This document shows positions 34,076-56,865 of a stretch of DNA of 64,000 bases, in pieces (the stretch's first letter is position 1; the number at the start of each line of letters is the position of its first letter). The stretch comes from Bacilli bacterium. Its GTDB lineage: Bacteria > Bacillota_I > Bacilli_A > RF39 > UBA660. Position numbers and translations under genes: made by a program. A model generated the notes under the pieces. That model worked only from the letters and a program-made list of their open reading frames with translations, was not told the origin of the DNA and searched no databases. The DNA lies in NCBI GenBank assembly GCA_017541325.1, contig JAFXZI010000003.1:1-64000 (forward strand). The letters are read 5' to 3'.

Positions 34076-35698
34076 TCACTCCTCTATTTCTATTTCTATA
34101 TTATCAAAAAGCTCATTTGCTTTTTTTATTATATCATGTTCTTCTTCTATTTCTTCTTCATTATTTATTTCTTCTGTTTTTTCTTCAATTAAGTTGTACT
34201 TAATATCTTTAGATGTATTTTCTATATATTCCTTTTTATATTTATTCCACTCTTTTTCTGTTATAAATACAATTTTTACATCTACATCTAATATTTTTTT
34301 AATAGCCTCTTCATAACTAGTTATATTAGAATTTCCTTTATCTACAAAAGAATCATATTTATGAGTTAAAACTAAATAATCTTTACTAGCTACTACCGGA
34401 GTAACATCTATTAACTCACATACACAAGCACCATATTTTCTATCAAGAGTATAATTATCAAGATCATTCCATTTGTTTTTAATTTTTTTCAACTCATCTT
34501 TATTAGCATCAACAAAAGTATTATTAACTCTTGTATTTTTAATATCTACAATTCTTTTTATAGATTTTTTCTTTCTTTTAACTTCTTTTTCTTCAGGTAA
34601 AATTTCTTTTTTTATTTCTTCTTTTTTATCTTCAATTATAGTTGGTATATTTTCTTGTTTCATATATTCTGTATTTTTACTAACATCATTATTTAATAAA
34701 TCAATTTTATACAAAGCAAGCATTAAATAATCACTATCAAGATTATTTTTTTTCATATTAGATAAAGCATCTAACAATAATTCGTATATTGAACATATGT
34801 TTGTATTATTGTTTTTTAACATTATAATATTTAATTGTTTAATTATCTTTTCTGTTAACTTAATTAAGTCTTTACCACCATTTCTATATTCGTTAATACA
34901 ACTAATAGATTTATCAATATCATGAGATATAATCATATTTGTTAAATTTTCAATTTCATGTGTAGAAACATTACCATTGATAGTTGTAATATCATCTAGA
35001 GTTATTTTATCAGATGAATAAGAACTAGCTAAATCTAGGAGTCCAATTGCATCTCTAAGACCGCCATCTGATTGATCAATTATTTCATTTATTGCATCAT
35101 CATCAATTTTAATTTTTTCTAATTTTGCTATTTCTTTTAATCTATCAAACATATCATTTTTATTTATTTTTTTAAATTCTAAAACCTGACATCTAGAAAT
35201 AATAGTTATTGGTACTTTTTCAATATCAGTTGTAGCTAAAATAAAAATTACATGTTCAGGTGGTTCTTCAAGTGTTTTTAGTAAAGCATTAAAAGCACCT
35301 ATAGAAAGCATATGTACCTCATCAATAATATATACCTTATATTTTAAATTTGACGGCAAAATAGTAACATTATTCTTTAATTCTCTGATTTCATCCACTC
35401 CATTATTTGAAGCTGCATCAATTTCAATTATATCTACACAACTATCTTGAATACTATCTAAACAATTAACACATTCATTACATGGATCTCCATTTTTTAA
35501 ATTCAAACAATTTACCATTCGAGCTACTATTTTTGCGATACTTGTTTTACCACACCCTCTAGGTCCAGTAAAAAGATATGCATGAGCGAATTTGTCTGAT
35601 TCAATTGCATTTGTAAGAATTCTAGTTATAATTTTTTGACCATATACTTCATTTAATGATTTAGGTCTATATTTACGATATAATGTTTGATAACTCAT
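34076..35698 (-). CDS. dnaX: DNA polymerase III gamma/tau subunit
   Basis: The clamp-loader ATPase of 540 residues. Motifs are Walker A GPRGCGKT (45-52), a four-cysteine zinc module (C64, and the CNECVNC group near 73-79), Walker B IIDEVHML near 124-131, the arginine SRC finger near 168, and a Glu/Lys-rich C-terminal tau-like region with KKKSIKR near 370. A gamma-producing frameshift is not evident. It starts the dnaX-ybaB-recR-holB run, 20-odd bases from its own promoter, next to the parS/NBS array. Confidence 0.97.
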   Translation of the reverse strand: MSYQTLYRKYRPKSLNEVYGQKIITRILTNAIESDKFAHAYLFTGPRGCGKTSIAKIVARMVNCLNLKNGDPCNECVNCLDSIQDSCVDIIEIDAASNNGVDEIRELKNNVTILPSNLKYKVYIIDEVHMLSIGAFNALLKTLEEPPEHVIFILATTDIEKVPITIISRCQVLEFKKINKNDMFDRLKEIAKLEKIKIDDDAINEIIDQSDGGLRDAIGLLDLASSYSSDKITLDDITTINGNVSTHEIENLTNMIISHDIDKSISCINEYRNGGKDLIKLTEKIIKQLNIIMLKNNNTNICSIYELLLDALSNMKKNNLDSDYLMLALYKIDLLNNDVSKNTEYMKQENIPTIIEDKKEEIKKEILPEEKEVKRKKKSIKRIVDIKNTRVNNTFVDANKDELKKIKNKWNDLDNYTLDRKYGACVCELIDVTPVVASKDYLVLTHKYDSFVDKGNSNITSYEEAIKKILDVDVKIVFITEKEWNKYKKEYIENTSKDIKYNLIEEKTEEINNEEEIEEEHDIIKKANELFDNIEIEIEE

Positions 35699-35731: not shown

Positions 35732-35812
35732 TTTTTGATGATATTTTATATCATTTTTTCACTTATTTAATAAGGTTTTTGTTATATTTTGTATTAATTA
35801 TTTAATATTTAA

Positions 35813-35828
35813 TGTTTCACGTGAAACA
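35813..35828. promoter_or_regulatory. parS site 1
   Basis: Perfect TGTTTCACGTGAAACA, the B. subtilis Spo0J/ParB consensus, flanked by AA and TT so the palindrome extends to 20 bp. Confidence 0.95.
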
Positions 35829-35872
35829 TTGGATATTAAATTTATTTTTTATATTATAAATATGTTAAAATT

Positions 35873-35886
35873 ATTTCCCGGGAAAT
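35873..35886. promoter_or_regulatory. Noc-binding site 1 (NBS)
   Basis: Perfect ATTTCCCGGGAAAT palindrome, the known Noc consensus, starting 60 bp after the start of parS1. The noc gene is in the same window. Confidence 0.92.
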
Positions 35887-35901
35887 ATTTTATTGTTTTA
35901 T

Positions 35902-35917
35902 AATTTCACATGAAACA
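35902..35917. promoter_or_regulatory. Degenerate parS-like site
   Basis: AATTTCACATGAAACA matches parS at 13 of 16 bases. The counterpart in repeat unit 2 (about 36111-36126) is further decayed, so it may be a relic with weak or no ParB binding. Confidence 0.4.
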
Positions 35918-36020
35918 TAGTTTTTCGTTAGTTATAAAAACAATATAATAAGCAAATAAAACAGTAATAAAATGATATTATATAAATAGTTAGTTAATTA
36001 ATTTAATTAAAAACAATCAA

Positions 36021-36036
36021 TGTTTCACGTGAAACA
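36021..36036. promoter_or_regulatory. parS site 2
   Basis: Perfect TGTTTCACGTGAAACA in repeat unit 2, 208 bp from site 1. Confidence 0.95.
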
Positions 36037-36081
36037 TTGGATATAAAATTTATTTTTTTATATTATAAATATGCTAGAATT

Positions 36082-36095
36082 ATTTCCCGGGAAAT
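36082..36095. promoter_or_regulatory. Noc-binding site 2 (NBS)
   Basis: Perfect ATTTCCCGGGAAAT, 61 bp after the start of parS2. Confidence 0.92.
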
Positions 36096-36225
36096 ATTTT
36101 GTTGTTTTATAAGTTCACATAAAACATAGTTTTTCGTTTGTTATAAAAATAATATAATAAGCAATTATAACAGTAATAAAGAGATATTATATAAATAGTT
36201 AATTAATTTAATTAAAAATAATCAA

Positions 36226-36241
36226 TGTTTCACGTGAAACA
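36226..36241. promoter_or_regulatory. parS site 3
   Basis: Perfect TGTTTCACGTGAAACA, 205 bp from site 2, at the beginning of an incomplete third unit lacking an NBS. Confidence 0.95.
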
Positions 36242-36411
36242 TTACATTATATTTATATCTATATTTATTTATTAGTTGTTTTAGATATTTTATTTATGCT
36301 TAAAAAAAACATATTACTCTACTATTTTGAATATTAATAATCATGAATAATCAAGATTATGTTTCGTTATCTAATTTAACATATAATTAATCTATATTTT
36401 AATTTTTTCAA

Positions 36412-36427
36412 TGTTTCACGTGAAACA
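36412..36427. promoter_or_regulatory. parS site 4
   Basis: Perfect TGTTTCACGTGAAACA with no NBS paired after it. Confidence 0.95.
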
Positions 36428-36536
36428 TTGAATTTTTAAACAACATTTAATATTAACTAGTATTTTTAAAATAATTTATAGGATTACTTATCTTTGCTTA
36501 ATTATAGATTTATTCTATATGATCAAAATAAAACAA

Positions 36537-36552
36537 TGTTTCACGTGAAACA
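36537..36552. promoter_or_regulatory. parS site 5
   Basis: Perfect TGTTTCACGTGAAACA in the diverged partial copy next to tadA. Confidence 0.95.
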
Positions 36553-36596
36553 TTGTATATTAGTTTAATTTTAAATATTATAAATTTGTTAAAATT

Positions 36597-36610
36597 ATTT
36601 CCCGGGAAAT
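36597..36610. promoter_or_regulatory. Noc-binding site 3 (NBS)
   Basis: Perfect ATTTCCCGGGAAAT, 60 bp after the start of parS5 and only 3 bp beyond the tadA stop codon. Confidence 0.92.
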
Positions 36611-36613
36611 AAT

Positions 36614-37036
36614 TTATCTTTTGTTTTTAAAAAAATCTTTTATTAATAATTCAGATTTTTTATTATCTATATTTTTAATCCATTCAATATTTTTTAAAAT
36701 TTTATTAGTAATAATACTATATTCTTCATTATTATTAGTAGCTGAAGTATATATTTTACAGATTCTAGCCTGTTCAATTGCACTTGCACACATAGGACAT
36801 GGTTCTAAAGTAATATATATTTCACATTCTTCTAATCTCCAATTTTTTAATTTTTTATTAGCTTTTGTTATTGCAATTATTTCTGCGTGATCAATTGTTT
36901 TATTAGTTTTATTCTTTTTATTATGTGCTTTAGATATTACTTTTCCATTTTTTACTATTACAGCTCCGACCGGAATCTCATCATTTATTTTTGCTTTTTT
37001 TGCTTCTTTGTATGCTATTTCCATATATTTATTCAT
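36614..37036 (-). CDS. tadA: tRNA(Arg) adenosine-34 deaminase TadA
   Basis: TadA converts A34 of tRNA-Arg(ACG) to inosine. The start is taken at the ATG at 37036 (MNKYMEIAYKEAKKA, 140 residues), with GTGGTG upstream; the GTG four codons earlier is less likely. The zinc deaminase motifs are H50-A-E52 and PC80-PMC83, with Glu52 as proton shuttle. It lies between the SRP RNA and the parS/NBS array. tadA-SRP RNA-dnaX is the Bacillus order, here with the array inserted before dnaX. Confidence 0.96.
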   Translation of the reverse strand: MNKYMEIAYKEAKKAKINDEIPVGAVIVKNGKVISKAHNKKNKTNKTIDHAEIIAITKANKKLKNWRLEECEIYITLEPCPMCASAIEQARICKIYTSATNNNEEYSIITNKILKNIEWIKNIDNKKSELLIKDFFKNKR

Positions 37037-37080
37037 TTTTAACACCACACGAACATATGTATTATATTTTTAACTATAAA

Positions 37081-37162
37081 AAATGATGCACATGCATAAA
37101 ATATGTTAAGGCTGCTATCTTCCAATCCTGACCTGGTTCCACAATTACACATTGCATCATTT
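37081..37162 (-). ncRNA. ffs: Signal recognition particle RNA, small bacterial type
   Basis: On the minus strand the conserved domain IV reads GGAACCAGGTCAGGATTGG followed by AAGATAGCAGCC, containing the GGAAG-type tetraloop and the Ffh-binding symmetric loop. The ends AAATGATGCA and TGCATCATTT pair to close an 82-nt hairpin, and a T run follows. This is the 4.5S-like short form without the Alu domain of Bacillus scRNA. Ends are approximate. Confidence 0.92.
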
Positions 37163-37164
37163 AT

Positions 37165-37193
37165 AATATATTATATTTTTTAAAATATTTCAA
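37165..37193 (-). promoter_or_regulatory. Predicted SRP RNA promoter
   Basis: On the minus strand TTGAAA (37193-37188) and TATATT (37170-37165) are 17 bp apart, a few bases before the SRP RNA 5' end. It begins 10 bp before the gyrA stop. Confidence 0.55.
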
Positions 37194-37197
37194 GAAA

Positions 37198-39744
37198 TTA
37201 TTCTTCTTGCTTATCTACTTCTTGTTCTTGTTGTTCTTCATTTTCCTCTTCTTCTTCATCATTTTTTAGAATTGTTGTTATTGTTGCAACTTTTTGTTCA
37301 TCTTTTAAATTAATTAATTTAACTCCTTGAGTATTTCTGCTTAACGTAGATATTTGATCTAGAGATATTCTTATTACTATACCTAAATCAGTAATGATAA
37401 CAAGATCTTCATTTCCTTCTACACATCTAAATCCGATCATTTTACCTGTTTTATCAGTTGTATTTAGAGCTTTTACTCCTTTACTTCCTCTATGAGTTAA
37501 TCTATATTGTTCTGCTTTTGTTTGTTTTCCATATCCATTTTCAGTAACTACAAGGATATTTGCATCATCTGTTGATACTGCTGCACCTACTACTGTGTCA
37601 TTATCTTCAATATCCATTCCTCTAACTCCAGAACTTGCTCTACCCATTACTCTAACTTCTGATTCGTTAAATTTAATCATTTTTCCATTATCTGCACCAA
37701 TCATAATCAATTTATTTCCATTAGATTTAGATACTGTTATTAATTCATCTTCTTCTTTAAGAACAATTGCTTTTTTACCATTATTTCTAATACTAGCAAA
37801 TTCTTCTATCGCTGTTCTTTTAATAATTCCATTTTTAGTAACAAATACTAAATATTTATTATCATTATCTTCAGGATTTATTGATAACATTGATGTAATT
37901 TTTTCTTCTTTTTCAATAGGAAGTAAATTAATAATAGGTAATCCTTTAGATTGTCTGCTATATTCGGGAATTTCATATCCTTTTAATGAATATACCTTTC
38001 CTCTATTACTAAAGAATAATAATAAATCGTGAGTTCTCATTGAAACCATTTTCTCTGGGAAATCTTCTTCATTTGTAGACATCCCTTTAATTCCAACTCC
38101 TCCTCTATTTTGAGTTCTAAAATTATCATCTTGCACTCTCTTAATATATCCTTTATTAGTTAGTGCAATTAAGATGTTTTCTACAGGAATTAATGATTCA
38201 TCCTCAATATAATCAATTGCAGTCATATCTATATGAGTACGTCTTTCATCAGCAAAACGTTTCTTTATATCAAGCATTTCTTCTTTAATAATATTTAATA
38301 CTCTTTCTGGTTTAGCTAAAATATCTCTATAATCATCAATTTTAACAAGTAAATCTGCTAATTCGCTTTCTACTTTTTCTCTTTCTAATCCAGTTAATCT
38401 TCTTAATTTCATTTCAAGAATACTATTTGCTTGAATATCATCTAATCCAAATTTTGACATTAAATTAGATTTTGCTTCTTCATCAGAATCTGCTGCTCTA
38501 ATAGTTTTAACAACTTCATCGATATTATCAAGTGCAATTTTTAATCCTTCTAAAATATGTACTCTTTCTTCAGCTTTATTAAGATCATATCTTGTTCTTC
38601 TTATAATTATTTCTTTTTGATGTTCAATATACTTACTTATAATATCTTTTAATCCAAGAGTTCTAGGAGTTCCATTATCAAGAACTAATAGAATTATTCC
38701 ATAACTAATTTGAAAATTAGTATGTTTATACAAGTTATTTAATACTACTTGTGGATTTGCATCTTTTTTAAGAGTTATAGTAATTTTTACTCCATCTTTT
38801 AAATCAGTATGATAATCGCTTATTCCATCTATTACTTTATCTCTTACAAGTTCTGCAACTTTATTTTTTAATTCCATAGTATTTACACCATATGGTACTT
38901 CATCAATGATAATACTATGGTGACTTCCTGTTTCTTCTATCGAAGCTTTACTTCTAATAGTAATACTTCCTCTACCAGTTTCATATGCTTTTTTTATTCC
39001 TGAATTTCCAAGTATAATTCCACCTGTTGGAAAATCTGGTCCTTTAATATATTGCATTAGACCTAATGTATCAATTTCAGGATTATCAATATATGCTACA
39101 CAACCATCAATTACTTCACCTAAATTATGAGGTGGAATATTTGTTGCCATACCTACTGCAATACCCATTGATCCATTTACTAATACATTTGGAAATCTAC
39201 TAGGTAATACTTGTGGTTCGTCTCTAGTTTCATCAAAGTTTTTATTCATATTAACAGTATCTTTGTTAATATCTCTAAGTAATTCTAAAGATAATTTAGC
39301 AAGTCTTGCTTCAGTATAACGGTATGCAGCTGCTCCATCACCTTCTATGTTACCAAAATTACCATGTCCATCAACTAGCATATATCTTTGGTTAAAATCT
39401 TGAGCAAGTCTAACCATTGCTTCATATATAGATGAGTCTCCATGTGGATGATAACGTCCCATAACATTACCAACTGTTGTTGCTGATTTTTTATGTGGTT
39501 TATCTGGAGTATTTCCATCTTCATACATTGACCATAATATACGTCTATGAACTGGTTTTAATCCATCTCTTAAATCTGGAATAGCACGTGATGTAATAAC
39601 ACTCATTGAATAATCTAAGAATGAATCTTTTACTTCTTTAACAATATTATTTTCAGTTAGTTTATCTCTTTCGTGAAATGTTCCACCAAAATCATTATTA
39701 TTTTCTAATACTTCTTCATTTTCTTTTATATTTTCATTATCCAT
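37198..39744 (-). CDS. gyrA: DNA gyrase subunit A
   Basis: GyrA cuts and rejoins DNA during negative supercoiling. The 848-residue protein has the active tyrosine Y143 in RYTEARL and the quinolone region GRYHPHGDSSIYEA with Ser104 and Glu108 at the E. coli S83 and D87 positions, so a sensitive genotype is suggested at S83. The C-terminal beta-pinwheel contains the GyrA box-like QRGGVGIKG near 542 (here QNRGGVGIKG), which supports gyrase rather than ParC. The last 20 residues are Glu/Gln-rich. It lies 11 nt after gyrB. Confidence 0.97.
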   Translation of the reverse strand: MDNENIKENEEVLENNNDFGGTFHERDKLTENNIVKEVKDSFLDYSMSVITSRAIPDLRDGLKPVHRRILWSMYEDGNTPDKPHKKSATTVGNVMGRYHPHGDSSIYEAMVRLAQDFNQRYMLVDGHGNFGNIEGDGAAAYRYTEARLAKLSLELLRDINKDTVNMNKNFDETRDEPQVLPSRFPNVLVNGSMGIAVGMATNIPPHNLGEVIDGCVAYIDNPEIDTLGLMQYIKGPDFPTGGIILGNSGIKKAYETGRGSITIRSKASIEETGSHHSIIIDEVPYGVNTMELKNKVAELVRDKVIDGISDYHTDLKDGVKITITLKKDANPQVVLNNLYKHTNFQISYGIILLVLDNGTPRTLGLKDIISKYIEHQKEIIIRRTRYDLNKAEERVHILEGLKIALDNIDEVVKTIRAADSDEEAKSNLMSKFGLDDIQANSILEMKLRRLTGLEREKVESELADLLVKIDDYRDILAKPERVLNIIKEEMLDIKKRFADERRTHIDMTAIDYIEDESLIPVENILIALTNKGYIKRVQDDNFRTQNRGGVGIKGMSTNEEDFPEKMVSMRTHDLLLFFSNRGKVYSLKGYEIPEYSRQSKGLPIINLLPIEKEEKITSMLSINPEDNDNKYLVFVTKNGIIKRTAIEEFASIRNNGKKAIVLKEEDELITVSKSNGNKLIMIGADNGKMIKFNESEVRVMGRASSGVRGMDIEDNDTVVGAAVSTDDANILVVTENGYGKQTKAEQYRLTHRGSKGVKALNTTDKTGKMIGFRCVEGNEDLVIITDLGIVIRISLDQISTLSRNTQGVKLINLKDEQKVATITTILKNDEEEEENEEQQEQEVDKQEE

Positions 39745-44730: not shown

Positions 44731-46092
44731 TTATCTTATTTCTTTTGTTAATTTTTCAATGGTTTTTTCTAACTCTTTATTCTTTTTCATTTCTTTTTCT
44801 ATCTTGTCACATGAATGAATTACTGTAGAATGATCTTTTCCACCAAATTCTATACCAATTTTAGGAAAAGATTCATCTGTTAATTGTCTACATAGATACA
44901 TAGCAACTTGTCTTGGAAAGGCGAGATTTGCACTTCTCTTCTTACTTCTTAAATCATCAACAGTGACTTGAAAATAATCAGCTACTATCTTTTGAATCCT
45001 TGCTATATCATTTTTTTCACTAACAAAACCTTTATTAATAAAGTCAACTAAAGCTTCCTCTGCTGTTTTTAAGTTCAATTCTACTTTAAATGTTGCTGAA
45101 TAAGCAGCAAGTCTAGTAACAGCACCTTCAAGATTTCTAATACTACCATTAATTGTAGAAGCCATATATTCTATAACATCTTCGGGTACATTATTTATAG
45201 ATGTTAATTCTTTAAATTTCTTTTTTAATATTTCTGATCGTAATTCTATATCTGGTGGATAAATATCAACTGCTAATCCCCAACCAAATCTAGTTTTTAA
45301 ACGATCTTCTAGCTTAGCTAGGTCATTTGGTGAAGAATCAGATGATATAATTATTTGCTTATTACCTTCATATAAAGTGTTAAAAGTGTGGAAAAACTCT
45401 CTTTGAGTACCAACTGCTCCACTTAAATATTGAATATCATCTATTATTAATACATCAACATTTCTATATTTATGCTTAAAAAAGTCAACATAATTGAAAT
45501 TAGTACCATCAGATTCCTTTTTTTGCATTGCAACATAATCATTAATAAATTGTTCACTTGTTATGTATAAAACTTTTTTATTACTATGTGAAACAATATA
45601 ATTACCAATAGCATGCATTAAATGAGTCTTACCAAGTCCACTATTTCCATATATAAATAATGGATTATATATTTTTCCTGGAGACTCAGCTACTGCTAAG
45701 GCCGCTGCATGTGCAAATTTATTACTATTACCGACTACAAAGTTATCAAATGTATACTTACTCAATAGATTAGAACTTATTTCGTATACTACTTCCTCTT
45801 CTCTATCATTTTTTACTGTTTCTACAATAGATGGAGTAACTTCTGCTTCTTCCTGTAATAATAGTTCTAATTCATATACATTTCCTGTTATTTCTCTAAA
45901 ACAATTATCAACTAAATCCTTATAATTATTAATAATGATCTTTTTATTAATTTCATATGGAACTATTATCATCGCAATTCCATTCTCTATTTTATATAAT
46001 TCCGTATCTTGAAACCAAGTTTGGTATGCTAATGAATCTAATTCGGATTTAATTTTATCTAATATGTTAGACCAAATTGTGTCTTTATCCAT
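44731..46092 (-). CDS. dnaA: Chromosomal replication initiator DnaA
   Basis: DnaA opens oriC. The 453-residue protein has domain I (about 1-75, DTIWSNILDKIKSELDSLAYQTWF), a short linker (about 75-110), the AAA+ domain with Walker A GNSGLGKTH (150-158), Walker B LIIDDIQYL near 215-223, and a C-terminal HTH with the signature GIEFGGKDHSTVIHSCDKIE near 415-434. The start follows GGGGGGAG. It is read away from the origin, with DnaA boxes on both sides of the gene. Confidence 0.98.
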   Translation of the reverse strand: MDKDTIWSNILDKIKSELDSLAYQTWFQDTELYKIENGIAMIIVPYEINKKIIINNYKDLVDNCFREITGNVYELELLLQEEAEVTPSIVETVKNDREEEVVYEISSNLLSKYTFDNFVVGNSNKFAHAAALAVAESPGKIYNPLFIYGNSGLGKTHLMHAIGNYIVSHSNKKVLYITSEQFINDYVAMQKKESDGTNFNYVDFFKHKYRNVDVLIIDDIQYLSGAVGTQREFFHTFNTLYEGNKQIIISSDSSPNDLAKLEDRLKTRFGWGLAVDIYPPDIELRSEILKKKFKELTSINNVPEDVIEYMASTINGSIRNLEGAVTRLAAYSATFKVELNLKTAEEALVDFINKGFVSEKNDIARIQKIVADYFQVTVDDLRSKKRSANLAFPRQVAMYLCRQLTDESFPKIGIEFGGKDHSTVIHSCDKIEKEMKKNKELEKTIEKLTKEIR

Positions 46093-46393
46093 ATAACACC
46101 ACTCCCCCCGGTTATAAGATTAAATTTCAAATTAATTGTATCTTAAGTTGTTTAAAAAATAAATAGAAAACAAGCAAAAATAATTGTCCACAGGTTATCA
46201 ACAAAAGTTATCCACTATTATATGTTTGATTTTAAAGAAAGAAAAGAACTTTTCCACATTTTCCACAAATTTTAATAAACATGTTATTTTTTGTTTTCAA
46301 CATGGATGTTGATAATGTTAATATTTTTATTTATTGACAAAAACATATAAATCTTATTATAATAATGTAGATTTTAGTTTGGAGGTGTATTTT
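46093..46393. other. Predicted replication origin oriC (DnaA-box cluster)
   Basis: The 301-bp gap between divergent dnaA and rpmH contains six near-perfect DnaA boxes (each one mismatch from TTATCCACA): 46184-46192, 46195-46203, 46208-46216, 46250-46258, 46259-46267, and 46307-46315 in reverse. AT-rich stretches flank them. The strand switch of gene direction occurs here. The unwinding element is not pinpointed; the 46275-46300 AT segment is a candidate. Confidence 0.85.
46334..46363 (+). promoter_or_regulatory. Predicted rpmH promoter
   Basis: TTGACA (46334-46339), 18 bp, TATAAT (46358-46363). Both hexamers are perfect. It drives rpmH and perhaps rnpA. Confidence 0.8.
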
Positions 46394-52478: not shown

Positions 52479-52508
52479 TATTTTATAAGAATAAATGGAG
52501 GGTTGACA

Positions 52509-54290
52509 ATGGAAAACGCAAACGAAGAAGTTGTACAATTATATTTAGATGACATTATTCCTAATAGGTTTCAACCTAGAGAAGTATTTGATGATCAAGC
52601 TTTAAAAGAATTAGCGGTATCTATTAGAGAACATGGTGTAATACAACCAATCCTTGTAAGAAAATTTGGAGAAAAGTACGAAATAATTGCAGGAGAACGT
52701 AGATATAAAGCATCTACTATGGCAGGACTTACAAAGATACCAGCTATTATTAAAAATTTAGATGATAAAGAAGCTTCAAAAGTAGCTTTAATTGAAAATC
52801 TTCAAAGAAGAGATTTAACTCCAGTAGAAGAAGCAAGAACATATCAAAAAATATTAGATTTAGACCAAATGACACAAGAACAACTTGCTAAAACTATGGG
52901 AAAAAGTCAATCTGCTGTATCAAATAAGTTAAGATTATTAACATTACCTGATGAAGTACAAGAAGCTTTGCTAAATAATAAGATTTCTGAACGTCATGCT
53001 AGAAGTTTATTAAATGCACCTAAAAATGCACAAGTAAGTTTATTAAAAGAAGTAATAGATAATAAAATGACTGTAAGAGAATTAGATAGCAGAATTAAAG
53101 CGATGACAGGAGATAATGGAACAGATTCAGCAACAGGAGGAGCAACACCAGCATCAGTTCAAGATAATAATTTCTTGTTTAACAATGGAGGTAATGTCAT
53201 GAATAATTATGATCCAACAGCAGTTGATATTAATAAGATTAGGGAACAATCAGTTGATATTAATTCTATGAATACTAATCCGGTTCCAAGTGAGCCTAAA
53301 AATATAGATAGTTTATTATTAGGAGGAGCAACACCAACTGTAACACCACCACAAAACGAAAATAGATTTATTCCTGATAATATGGATACTACAATTGAAA
53401 AAACTGAAGATGGTAATGAAGTAATTGGTAATGGGTTACTTGCTGGAATGCCAGTAATTAAAGAAACACCTAATAATTCAAATAGTATATTTACCCCTCC
53501 AGTTGTTGATACTATTCAACCTGAACCTATGGTTGATAATAATATGAATAATCAAACTATGTCAACACCACAACCAGAACCAGCACCAACTAGTTTGTTT
53601 GCAACACCACCAACACCAGTTGAACAACCATCAATGATGGATAATGCAAATAATGTGGTGCCTCCTGTACAACCAGAGCCAGTGCAACCAGTACCACAAG
53701 AACAACCACAACCAGAACCTACATCAAACAGTTTATTTACAACACCACCAACACCAATTGAACAACCACCAATGATGGATAATGCAAATAATATGGTACC
53801 TCCTGCACAACCAGAGCCAGTACAACCAGCACCAGTTGATTCAGAACCAACTACTGATGTTAATAGTTTGTTCTCAACACCAGCGCCAGAACAAGTACCA
53901 ATAAATACTGGAGTTGTTCCAACTCAACCAATGAGTGCAGCTCCAAGTGGACCTAATAAGTATTCAATTAATTTTGATTTCTCACAAATGGAACTAAATC
54001 CTAAAAAGATAGAAGAGATGAAGCAAGCTAAGGCGCAAGAACAAGCACAACAACAAGCTGCTCAACCACAACAACCAGCTCCTGTTGCACCAAACCCAAT
54101 ACTAGGACAACAACCAATAGAGAATAATCAAGTTAATATACCAATACCACCTCAATTAAATCCAATGAATGCAGTAAATGATATTAAGAATTTAGTAAGT
54201 AATTTAACAGCACAAGGATATAAGGTTACTGTAGATGAATTAAATTTGGATAATGAGGTACAGTTAATAGTTAAATTTATTAAAGGTTAA
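52509..54290 (+). CDS. noc: Nucleoid occlusion factor Noc with a very long C-terminal linker
   Basis: A 593-residue ParB-family CTPase; Noc is usually about 280. The ATG at 52509 follows GGAGGG; the TTG at 52503 is too close. The N-domain has IPNRFQPREVF (18-28), GERRYKA and ENLQRRDL CTP motifs. The helix-turn-helix has GKSQSAVSNKLRLL and ISERHARSL: Gln, Lys and Arg occupy the Noc-type specificity positions. Residues about 205-555 are Pro/Gln/Asn-rich with S-[LI]-F motifs at S326, S362, S408 and S453 and a 46-residue duplication. The end, NLVSNLTAQGYKVTVDELNL to VKFIKG, probably dimerises. The amphipathic N-terminal helix that attaches B. subtilis Noc to membrane is absent. Confidence 0.88.
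   Translation: MENANEEVVQLYLDDIIPNRFQPREVFDDQALKELAVSIREHGVIQPILVRKFGEKYEIIAGERRYKASTMAGLTKIPAIIKNLDDKEASKVALIENLQRRDLTPVEEARTYQKILDLDQMTQEQLAKTMGKSQSAVSNKLRLLTLPDEVQEALLNNKISERHARSLLNAPKNAQVSLLKEVIDNKMTVRELDSRIKAMTGDNGTDSATGGATPASVQDNNFLFNNGGNVMNNYDPTAVDINKIREQSVDINSMNTNPVPSEPKNIDSLLLGGATPTVTPPQNENRFIPDNMDTTIEKTEDGNEVIGNGLLAGMPVIKETPNNSNSIFTPPVVDTIQPEPMVDNNMNNQTMSTPQPEPAPTSLFATPPTPVEQPSMMDNANNVVPPVQPEPVQPVPQEQPQPEPTSNSLFTTPPTPIEQPPMMDNANNMVPPAQPEPVQPAPVDSEPTTDVNSLFSTPAPEQVPINTGVVPTQPMSAAPSGPNKYSINFDFSQMELNPKKIEEMKQAKAQEQAQQQAAQPQQPAPVAPNPILGQQPIENNQVNIPIPPQLNPMNAVNDIKNLVSNLTAQGYKVTVDELNLDNEVQLIVKFIKG
53592..53867 (+). repeat. 138-bp tandem duplication inside noc
   Basis: The segment starting AGTTTGTTTGCAACACCACC near 53592 recurs near 53730 (AGTTTATTTACAACACCACC), 138 bp or 46 codons later, through ATGATGGATAATGCAAATAA to CAACCAGAGCCAGT. 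A third SLF start lies at 53865 but the rest differs. Confidence 0.85.
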
Positions 54291-54381: not shown

Positions 54382-55170
54382 ATGGGAAAAATAATATCTT
54401 TAGTTAATCAAAAAGGTGGAGTAGGAAAGACAACAACTAGTATTAATTTAGCTGCCTCATTGGCTCTTTTGGGTAAAAAGGTGTTACTAGTGGATTTGGA
54501 TCCTCAAGCAAATGCTACAACTGGAATAGGACTTAGTAAAGGTGATGTTGAGTATAGTATTTATGAGGTATTAGCTGGAACATGTGATATAGAATCTGCT
54601 GTATATGCAAGTAAATATAAAAGACTTTATGTTATACCAGCAACTATTAACTTAGCAGGTATACAAAATGAATTTTATGATAAAGAACGTAGAGAAAGTG
54701 ATTTTTCAAGATCAGGACAGTTAAAAAAGAATATAGATAGAATTAAAGATGAATTTGATTATATTATTATGGATTGTCCTCCATCATTAGGATTAATAAT
54801 TACAAATGCTTTAACTGCATCCGATTCAGTAATAATTCCTGTTCAATGTGAATTCTTTGCACTAGAAGGAATTATGCAATTATTAAATTCTATTATGATG
54901 GCACAAAAAAATTTAAATCCAAATCTTCAATTAGAAGGAGTATTACTTACAATGTTAGATTCTCGTACTAATTTAGGATTTGAAGTAGTAGAAGAGGTTC
55001 GTAAATACTTTAAGGAAAAGGTATATGATACTATTATTCCAAGATTAATCAGACTTACAGAAGCACCATCACATGGAAAACCAATAGTAGCATATGATCC
55101 AAAAAGTAAAGGAACAGAAGCTTATTTAAATTTAGCTAAGGAAGTGATTGAAAGAAATGGACACAACTAA
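54382..55170 (+). CDS. parA: Chromosome partitioning ATPase ParA (Soj)
   Basis: Soj/ParA is a Walker-type ATPase that binds DNA nonspecifically, works with ParB-parS in segregation and regulates DnaA. The 262-residue protein is of the short type without an N-terminal HTH. The deviant Walker A is KGGVGKTT (11-18). DCPPSLGLI near 130 and the PRLIRLTEAPSHGKPI stretch near 215-230 are typical. The start follows GAGGTGATACT. parB overlaps or adjoins its end. Confidence 0.97.
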   Translation: MGKIISLVNQKGGVGKTTTSINLAASLALLGKKVLLVDLDPQANATTGIGLSKGDVEYSIYEVLAGTCDIESAVYASKYKRLYVIPATINLAGIQNEFYDKERRESDFSRSGQLKKNIDRIKDEFDYIIMDCPPSLGLIITNALTASDSVIIPVQCEFFALEGIMQLLNSIMMAQKNLNPNLQLEGVLLTMLDSRTNLGFEVVEEVRKYFKEKVYDTIIPRLIRLTEAPSHGKPIVAYDPKSKGTEAYLNLAKEVIERNGHN

Positions 55171-56047
55171 AAGAAGGGCACTAGGAAAAGGCCTAGAAGA
55201 ATTATTTAATAATGAAAAACTAGATTTTAATACTATGGAGGAGAAAATAGTTAATTCAACTCCAAAAGAAGAAATTGTAGACATTGAATTAAATGAATTA
55301 AGAAGTAATCCATACCAACCAAGAAAAGTATTTGATGAAGAAAAATTAAATGAATTATCTTCATCAATAAAAGAATTTGGTGTAATTCAACCAATCATTG
55401 TTAAAAAGAGTATTAAGGGATATGAAATAATTGCAGGAGAACGTAGAGTAAAAGCAGCTAAATTAGCAGGACTTGAAAAAATACCAGCAATTGTAAGAGA
55501 ATTTACTGATACTGAAATGATGGAAATTGCATTGCTTGAAAATCTTCAAAGAGAGAATTTAAATGCTATAGAAGAAGCAACTGCATATAAGAAATTACTA
55601 GATACTTTATCTTTAACACAAGAAGAATTAGCAGAAAAGTTAGGAAAGAGTAGAAGTCATATTACTAATATGATTGGATTATTATCTTTACCAAAAAATG
55701 TTAAAGAAAAAATTGCAGATGGTACATTATCAATGAGTCATGCAAGAGTATTAAGTAAAATAGAAGATGAAAATAAAATAAATGAATTTGTTTCTAAAAT
55801 AGAAAATGAAAATCTTAATGTAAGAGATCTTGAAGATTTATCAAGAGAAGATGATGTTAAAAAGACTCATACAGTTAAGAGAAAAACTAGTTCTTATATT
55901 AATGAATATAGTGCATTAGAAGATGAATTATCAGATAAATTAGGAACTAGAGTAAAGTTTAAGAAAAATAAAATTGAAATTAATTTTAATAATAATAGTG
56001 ATTTAAATAGAATACTTGATATTATGAAATATACTGACTGGAGGTAA
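55148..56047 (+). CDS. parB: Chromosome partitioning protein ParB (Spo0J)
   Basis: ParB is a CTP-dependent clamp that loads at parS. The 299-residue protein has the N-terminal ParA-stimulating segment (KRRALGKGLEELF), the CTP motifs GERRVKAAKL and ENLQREN, and an HTH with GKSRSHITNM and LSMSHARVL, where Arg marks the ParB rather than Noc type. The C-terminal dimerisation domain ends VKFKKNKIEINFNNNSDLNRILDIM. The start is a TTG at 55148 with AAGGA at good spacing, or the ATG at 55157; the former overlaps parA by 23 nt. Its binding sites are the five parS at 35.8-36.6 kb. Confidence 0.96.
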   Translation: MKEMDTTKRRALGKGLEELFNNEKLDFNTMEEKIVNSTPKEEIVDIELNELRSNPYQPRKVFDEEKLNELSSSIKEFGVIQPIIVKKSIKGYEIIAGERRVKAAKLAGLEKIPAIVREFTDTEMMEIALLENLQRENLNAIEEATAYKKLLDTLSLTQEELAEKLGKSRSHITNMIGLLSLPKNVKEKIADGTLSMSHARVLSKIEDENKINEFVSKIENENLNVRDLEDLSREDDVKKTHTVKRKTSSYINEYSALEDELSDKLGTRVKFKKNKIEINFNNNSDLNRILDIMKYTDWR

Positions 56048-56049
56048 TT

Positions 56050-56865
56050 ATGGTTTTAGAAAAAGTAATAGATATAATTACTAATAAACTATTTTATAAG
56101 CCCATAGTATATATAGTTGTAGGATTAATTGTTTATGAAATAATTAAAAAAGTAATAATGTCTTTATTTAATAAGCAAAGTAAATTATTAAAATCTAATA
56201 AAAATAGATATAAGACATTAGTACAATTATTAGTAGATATGATTAAATTTACTATTATATTTATAGTTATTCTATCTATATTATCTGTATATGGAGTAAA
56301 TGTTCAAGCAGCACTTGCTGGACTAGGAATAGTTTCTGTAGTAATTGGACTTGCTTTTCAAGATTTATTTAAAGATTACATTGTTGGTTTTTCTATTATA
56401 CTTGAAGATTATTTTTCCGTAGGAGATACTATTATGGTATCTGATTTTAGAGGAGAAGTAATACATATTGGATTAAAAAGTACTAAAATAAAAAGTTATG
56501 ATGGTGCTGTTATGGCAATAGCTAATAGAAATATTGATAAAGTAATTAATTATAGTAGAGATAAATCACTTGCTGTTGTAGAAGTACCAGTTGCTTATGA
56601 AAGTGATTTAGAAAAAGTAGAAAAAGTATTAAATGATTTATTTAAAACTCTTCCAAAAGAAATTCCAGAAATTGCTGGAGATATAACTATTTGGGGAGTA
56701 GATGATTTAGGTGACTCTGCTGTTGTATATAAAGTAGTTGCACCAACAATATCTATGCAACACTTTATGGTTCAAAGAAAAATTAGAAAAGCTATTAAAA
56801 TAAGATTTGATAAAGAAAAAATTAAGATTCCTTATACACAAATTGAGGTACATAATGGAAAGTAA
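56050..56865 (+). CDS. Small-conductance mechanosensitive channel, MscS family
   Basis: A 271-residue MscS-type channel with three membrane segments: about 17-39, 57-80 and 84-105. The pore helix-like AALAGLGIVSVVIGLAFQDL is Gly/Ala-rich as expected, followed by the beta domain with FSVGDTIMV near 120-130 and a C-terminal domain. It releases solutes during hypo-osmotic shock. It begins 2 nt after parB with a GGAGGTAATT site and overlaps yyzM, so it is read as part of the parAB unit. Confidence 0.92.
   Translation: MVLEKVIDIITNKLFYKPIVYIVVGLIVYEIIKKVIMSLFNKQSKLLKSNKNRYKTLVQLLVDMIKFTIIFIVILSILSVYGVNVQAALAGLGIVSVVIGLAFQDLFKDYIVGFSIILEDYFSVGDTIMVSDFRGEVIHIGLKSTKIKSYDGAVMAIANRNIDKVINYSRDKSLAVVEVPVAYESDLEKVEKVLNDLFKTLPKEIPEIAGDITIWGVDDLGDSAVVYKVVAPTISMQHFMVQRKIRKAIKIRFDKEKIKIPYTQIEVHNGK

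Follow-up and report, generated by a model that had tools for sequence, protein, structure and literature searches.

A compact array of interleaved parS and Noc-binding sites near the presumed replication origin, shared across a family of uncultured Bacilli

ParB and Noc are paralogues, and in the view drawn from Bacillus the compact sites near the origin serve chromosome segregation, while dispersed, membrane-linked sites serve nucleoid occlusion. In the Soj-Spo0J-parS system of B. subtilis, several parS sites are scattered over the origin region, and the binding sites of Noc (NBS) are dispersed according to published accounts (PMC12203958, PMC7383237). Here we describe a different arrangement in a 64,000-nucleotide stretch of DNA from a Bacilli bacterium (the window; contig JAFXZI010000003.1 of assembly GCA_017541325.1, positions 1 to 64,000), in which the identical 16-bp parS and the identical NBS core occur together in one 0.8-kb array. 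The initial annotation of this DNA knew of no described locus pairing the two motifs compactly, and no account of a natural locus combining parS and NBS was found in the literature searched, most subscription papers being outside its scope. The imaging tools mParSpot and ParSite (PMC11109969, PMC11798528) likewise place ParB-parS and Noc-NBS side by side, as orthogonal labels, but these are engineered tools and contain no natural composite locus.

The array lies in the spacer between dnaX and tadA, where a motif search of the window recovered exactly the five perfect parS and three perfect NBS, interleaved within 800 bp, that had been annotated there. The parS copies are the perfect 16-bp palindrome TGTTTCACGTGAAACA, starting at 35813, 36021, 36226, 36412 and 36537, and the NBS copies are TATTTCCCGGGAAATA, matching at all 16 positions and starting at 35872, 36081 and 36596; no strand is assigned to any element of the array. 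At this base composition, the chance expectation for exact copies is ~0.0003 per genome for each motif. Three parS-NBS units can be recognized, with the NBS 59, 60, and 59 bp downstream of the parS, start to start. Unit 1 is composed of parS 1 (35813..35828), NBS 1 (35872..35887), and, as a third element, a degenerate parS-like box with 3 mismatches (35902..35917), and unit 2 repeats this order with parS 2 (36021..36036), NBS 2 (36081..36096), and a decayed parS-like box with 5 mismatches (36111..36126). Unit 3 is formed by parS 5 (36537..36552) and NBS 3 (36596..36611), which lies beside the tadA stop codon and has a flank that can be aligned in several congeners too. The other two of the five parS, parS 3 (36226..36241) and parS 4 (36412..36427), stand outside the units with no paired NBS.

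Units 1 and 2, each ~208 bp, are tandem copies with 88% identity, and parS and NBS are related palindromes, as would be expected if the NBS were nothing but parS copies that had drifted within a tandem repeat and had no role. The pattern of conservation contradicts this reading, which we rejected as extremely improbable: each of the three units has kept a perfect parS and a perfect NBS, while decay affects the spacer and the third parS-like box of units 1 and 2, and perfect NBS of this sequence reappear throughout the family, with a Noc carrying NBS-type residues found in the family genomes searched. In the whole genome (1,247,435 bases, 97% complete), no further parS or NBS with at most two mismatches was found, and copies with three mismatches are near the background level. 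The concern that both motifs might be common elsewhere in this genome is thereby answered, and the array is the only predicted place of nucleation for ParB and the only one for Noc. The locus thus departs from both known systems, since the parS sites scattered over the origin region in B. subtilis and the NBS dispersed in B. subtilis and S. aureus along the origin-proximal part of the chromosome, away from the terminus, are here drawn together, with every NBS of the genome confined to one putative centromere and alternating with parS.

The array is bounded by dnaX (34076..35698, reverse strand; PRK05563, 474 bits, above the cut-off) and tadA (36614..37048, reverse strand), for which the best NCBIfam match, TadA, scored 90.5 bits and is under the curated cut-off of 150. 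Beyond tadA are the small SRP RNA (37071..37168, reverse strand; RF00169, 65.4 bits), which was the only match of an Rfam search, and gyrA (37198..39744, reverse strand), named from its length and the gene order. The latter is the array's other conserved neighbour in the family, as gyrA homologues adjoin the arrays of relatives when the window proteins are mapped onto family contigs. The presumed oriC, a cluster of seven DnaA-box-like sites with at most one mismatch upstream of dnaA (46085..46315, no strand), is about 9.5-10.5 kb from the array.

The initial annotation had proposed a search for co-occurrence of the two motifs throughout the clade. When GTDB species genomes were scanned for a parS core and an NBS core whose starts are separated by 31-61 bp, at least 115 contigs matched, and the sites on all of these apart from L043, a short contig end, adjoin gyrA, tadA, or dnaX. 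The 80 with listed titles are metagenome-assembled or uncultured, mostly labelled Bacilli, Erysipelotrichaceae, Bacillales, or Tenericutes. The family with the array is large, uncultured, and mostly gut-derived, with genome labels that include Candidatus Onthousia, uncultured Bacilli, and Tenericutes, and we take it to be part of the GTDB order RF39. Its arrays occupy one or both of the gyrA-tadA and tadA-dnaX spacers, and their layouts vary widely: at one extreme a single NBS accompanies a few parS, and at the other, in L058, 22 sites alternate within 1.3 kb. Outside the family, the pair was found in 1 of 341 Bacilli genomes, where it is about 3 kb from gyrA. In a sample of 385 family genomes, an exact-core pair at 31-61 bp was present in 45 (33 of 150 genera) and one at 62-92 bp in 34, while the reversed-pattern control gave 0. 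Since exact patterns undercount, tadA loci from 30 genera were taken regardless of motifs; parS with at most two mismatches was present at all 30, and NBS as well at 19 (12 of the 15 with both gyrA and dnaX on the fetched piece), compared to a shuffled expectation of ~0.002 or less per locus, and these counts are lower bounds because several contigs end at the array. All eight congeners retain two or more parS and two or more NBS in the tadA-dnaX region, with the spacer largely turned over. The array is a trait of the family and not peculiar to one organism.

In 11 of the 30 loci taken without regard to motifs, some of them cut by contig ends, there was no NBS within 1.5 kb, so tight pairing of parS and NBS is common but not obligatory. 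This result, together with the NBS found 4-10 kb from the array locus or beside noc in some genera and the quick change of array layouts, is consistent with a rival explanation in which the two kinds of site are neighbours without cooperation, each needing proximity to oriC, accumulating in the tolerant gyrA-tadA-dnaX spacers, and multiplying by tandem duplication, with ParB and Noc acting independently. We consider this explanation rather unlikely, given that a strict PNPNPN alternation recurs in many lineages whose units differ in length and whose spacers are unrelated, and that the spacing of parS to NBS is phased while that of like sites is not. Neighbouring parS and NBS favour distances near 26, 36, 46, 58, 68, 77, and 88 bp, start to start, a period of ~10.7-11 bp that is close to the DNA helical repeat, and no helical period was seen for parS-parS or NBS-NBS neighbours in the same loci. 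With one spacing per locus (n = 115), Z reached up to 12, and with spacings distinct per genus (79 in 39 genera), Z was 9.6 (p ~0.0002, jitter null). One spacing per 90%-identity cluster gave p < 0.01 and one per 80%-identity cluster a median p of ~0.05, and clustering at 70-75% identity leaves too few clusters for these statistics. As the statistics weaken with stricter phylogenetic correction, we treat helical phasing of the parS-NBS spacing as a lead that is suggestive at most.

The confinement of NBS seen in this genome extends to its relatives. In nine well-assembled family genomes, all NBS with at most two mismatches belong to the array or are no farther than ~23 kb from it, except for one two-mismatch site on another contig. 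Of 45 NBS listed from fragmented assemblies, 16 could not be placed within 10 kb of tadA or noc on one contig, and the claim of confinement therefore rests on the better-assembled genomes. Several genera have a lone NBS elsewhere in the origin region, in some cases ~300 bp upstream of noc, suggesting autoregulation there. Perfect single NBS a few hundred bp upstream of noc were recorded at C6:15494 in genome G014, C22:15941 in G011, C37:11956 in G009, and C23:43575 in G039. Sites near noc, and the position of the array directly upstream of dnaX, could also be accommodated if the sites were operators regulating transcription of dnaX, tadA, or the SRP RNA. This was rejected as very unlikely on the number of sites and the free choice of spacer, as up to 22 alternating sites misfit single-gene operators and the gyrA-tadA or tadA-dnaX spacer is used freely.

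The window also encodes both proteins expected to read the array, with noc and parB 16-20 kb away from it as originally annotated. A ParA/MinD-type ATPase gene, designated parA from its matches and its position (54382..55170, forward strand), lies between the noc-like gene (52509..54290, forward strand) and parB (55148..56047, forward strand). ParB has a ParA-contact-like N-terminal motif, LGKGLEELF, and a parS-type HTH (GKSRSHITNM), groups with Spo0J/ParB in the tree, and has R173 but not R201, the residues associated with parS-type specificity (PMC7383237). The features of a ParABS system are thus present, namely perfect parS near oriC, adjacent parA and parB, and a ParB of parS type, and they match B. 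subtilis Soj-Spo0J-parS in the parS sequence, the several parS and the parA-parB operon near oriC, the LGKGLEELF-type N-terminus, and the HTH. An MscS-like channel gene (56050-56865) follows directly after parB with a 2-bp gap.

The noc-like gene encodes 593 aa from an ATG, or 595 aa from a TTG at 52503, and its product consists of a ParB_N domain, an HTH, a disordered linker of ~350 aa, and a C-terminal dimerisation-like domain. In the tree, the Noc clade includes B. subtilis and Geobacillus Noc with support of 100/98, and the Noc sequences of the family form a monophyletic group (99/98). On this phylogeny, the family's second ParB-like protein is identified as a true Noc orthologue, distinct from ParB. 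The window protein scored 280.8 bits against the NCBIfam model nucleoid_noc, under the cut-off of 315, in line with its divergent architecture, and a PDB fold search with its AlphaFold model returned Noc first. In published work, Q173, K179 and/or K184, and R201 switch specificity to NBS, and K179 alone is enough in Caulobacter variants (PMC7383237). The equivalents of Q173, K179, and R201 in the window Noc are Q134, K140, and R162; among 25 Noc proteins, the Q and R are invariant and the K179-type lysine is present in 90% or more, while position 184 in the family is T, S, A, N, G, or D and not K. CTP-binding motifs are present in the family Noc. In these residues and motifs, in its place in the tree, and in the NBS core, the family system is the same as Noc-NBS of B. 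subtilis and S. aureus, and it differs in the two parts of the protein considered below.

The function of B. subtilis Noc requires an N-terminal amphipathic membrane-targeting helix (PMC4331003, PMC8429893). The window Noc has no such helix, as the protein begins MENANEEVVQLYL and runs straight into the ParB fold, with a ribosome-binding site immediately before TTG-ACA-ATG. A start without the helix is common to 30 family genomes, several of which have an in-frame stop just upstream, and one of which (L201) has no ATG and an ambiguous noc start. The Noc proteins of the other Bacilli in the tree begin MGLFDFLG, MALFNRK, and MNIFSGNKDK, and because helix-type starts are present in two of these three (MGLFDFLG and MALFNRK), the simplest account of the sequences would be loss of the Bacillus-type membrane helix in the family. 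A 681-aa Noc-like frame from another family (L300, genome G084) has both the MALFNRK start and a long linker, and is possibly an intermediate between Bacillus-type and family-type Noc. The second difference is the disordered linker, which in the family spans roughly 150-450 residues with recurrent motifs before a folded C-terminal domain. The window protein has two of these motifs, VDINKIREQSVDI (53223..53261, forward strand), similar to a motif in most family members, and IDSLL (53304..53318, forward strand), similar to one in about half of the family. In the AlphaFold model, the N-terminal, DNA-binding, and C-terminal parts are folded and the linker is disordered, with short low-confidence helices over both motifs.

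We consider it likely that the array is the organism's chromosomal centromere, a composite platform that loads ParB and Noc side by side and restricts Noc to the origin. The starting points are direct observations, namely two kinds of site that are exclusive to the array in this genome and conserved in position in the family, the specificity residues of both proteins, and a Noc that has linker motifs but no membrane helix, and from these we infer binding of the two proteins, their loading as CTP clamps, and recruitment by the linker. ParB would nucleate on parS and Noc on NBS inside the same 0.8 kb, ~10 kb from oriC, after which both would close as CTP-dependent clamps and slide into a shared origin domain. 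In segregation, its conventional role, ParB would connect this domain with ParA and probably also with SMC. Noc without its membrane-targeting helix, unlike that of Bacillus, would probably not tether dispersed chromosomal DNA to the membrane, and its linker with conserved short motifs would most likely recruit a partner, whether a divisome, replication, or membrane protein, only at the origin.

The initial annotation had suggested a joint partition and nucleoid-occlusion complex near oriC. The joint cluster of ParB and Noc sites is well supported, being exclusive in this genome, syntenic in the family, and matched by the specificity residues of the proteins. Nucleoid occlusion is doubtful, because confinement of NBS to the origin region and the lack of a membrane helix argue against the chromosome-wide Bacillus type; as judged from sequence, chromosome-wide, membrane-based occlusion is unlikely, and the family Noc probably acts only at the origin and not along the chromosome. 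By analogy, the most likely alternative for its changed role would be an origin-borne cue for division or replication, given through partners bound to the linker. The analogues are S. aureus Noc, B. subtilis Spo0J and Noc, which jointly affect the timing of the Z-ring (PMC6852036), and Caulobacter MipZ (PMC7022226). With MipZ-ParB the likeness is conceptual, in that a factor bound at the origin could position division with respect to the origin as it segregates, whereas MipZ is a ParA-type ATPase and Noc belongs to the ParB-type CTPases and has DNA sites of its own. FtsZ is present in this genome, and a search of the 97%-complete assembly gave no match to MinC.

One such role, control of replication initiation by origin-bound Noc with the array placing Noc near oriC and dnaA, can be set out as an explanation of its own, though it overlaps with the composite centromere as one of its possible functions. 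It draws on S. aureus, where replication over-initiates in noc mutants, with suppressors mapping to dnaA (PMC5540599), and it fits the ~10 kb between the array and the DnaA-box cluster as well as the restriction of family NBS to the origin region. The sequence shows no direct sign of a contact with DnaA, and we regard the explanation as unlikely. For the composite centromere, a more specific version is possible and is held tentatively, in which Noc, once an inhibitor of division that tethered DNA to the membrane along the whole chromosome, would have become a part of the centromere. It would load together with ParB from alternating sites in helical phase, and its linker motifs would recruit an origin partner, providing a division or replication cue in cells without MinC.

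The family is informative about the evolution of Noc from ParB and about the placement of division in cells lacking Min, as throughout it both proteins and both exact DNA sequences are retained, the sites are merged into what is likely one centromere, and the membrane helix is dropped, so that the DNA and CTP-clamp activity of Noc would be naturally separated from membrane tethering. It also provides many array designs from which spacing rules may be read. Two loci, L274 (genome G038) and L280 (G033), have 11 and 13 parS-like sites, respectively, at the same position, with no NBS within the fetched piece. The largest among the arrays listed is that of G030 (L020/L242), a genome with 20 perfect NBS in total, 12 of which are on one contig at ~79-bp intervals, alternating with parS-like sites.
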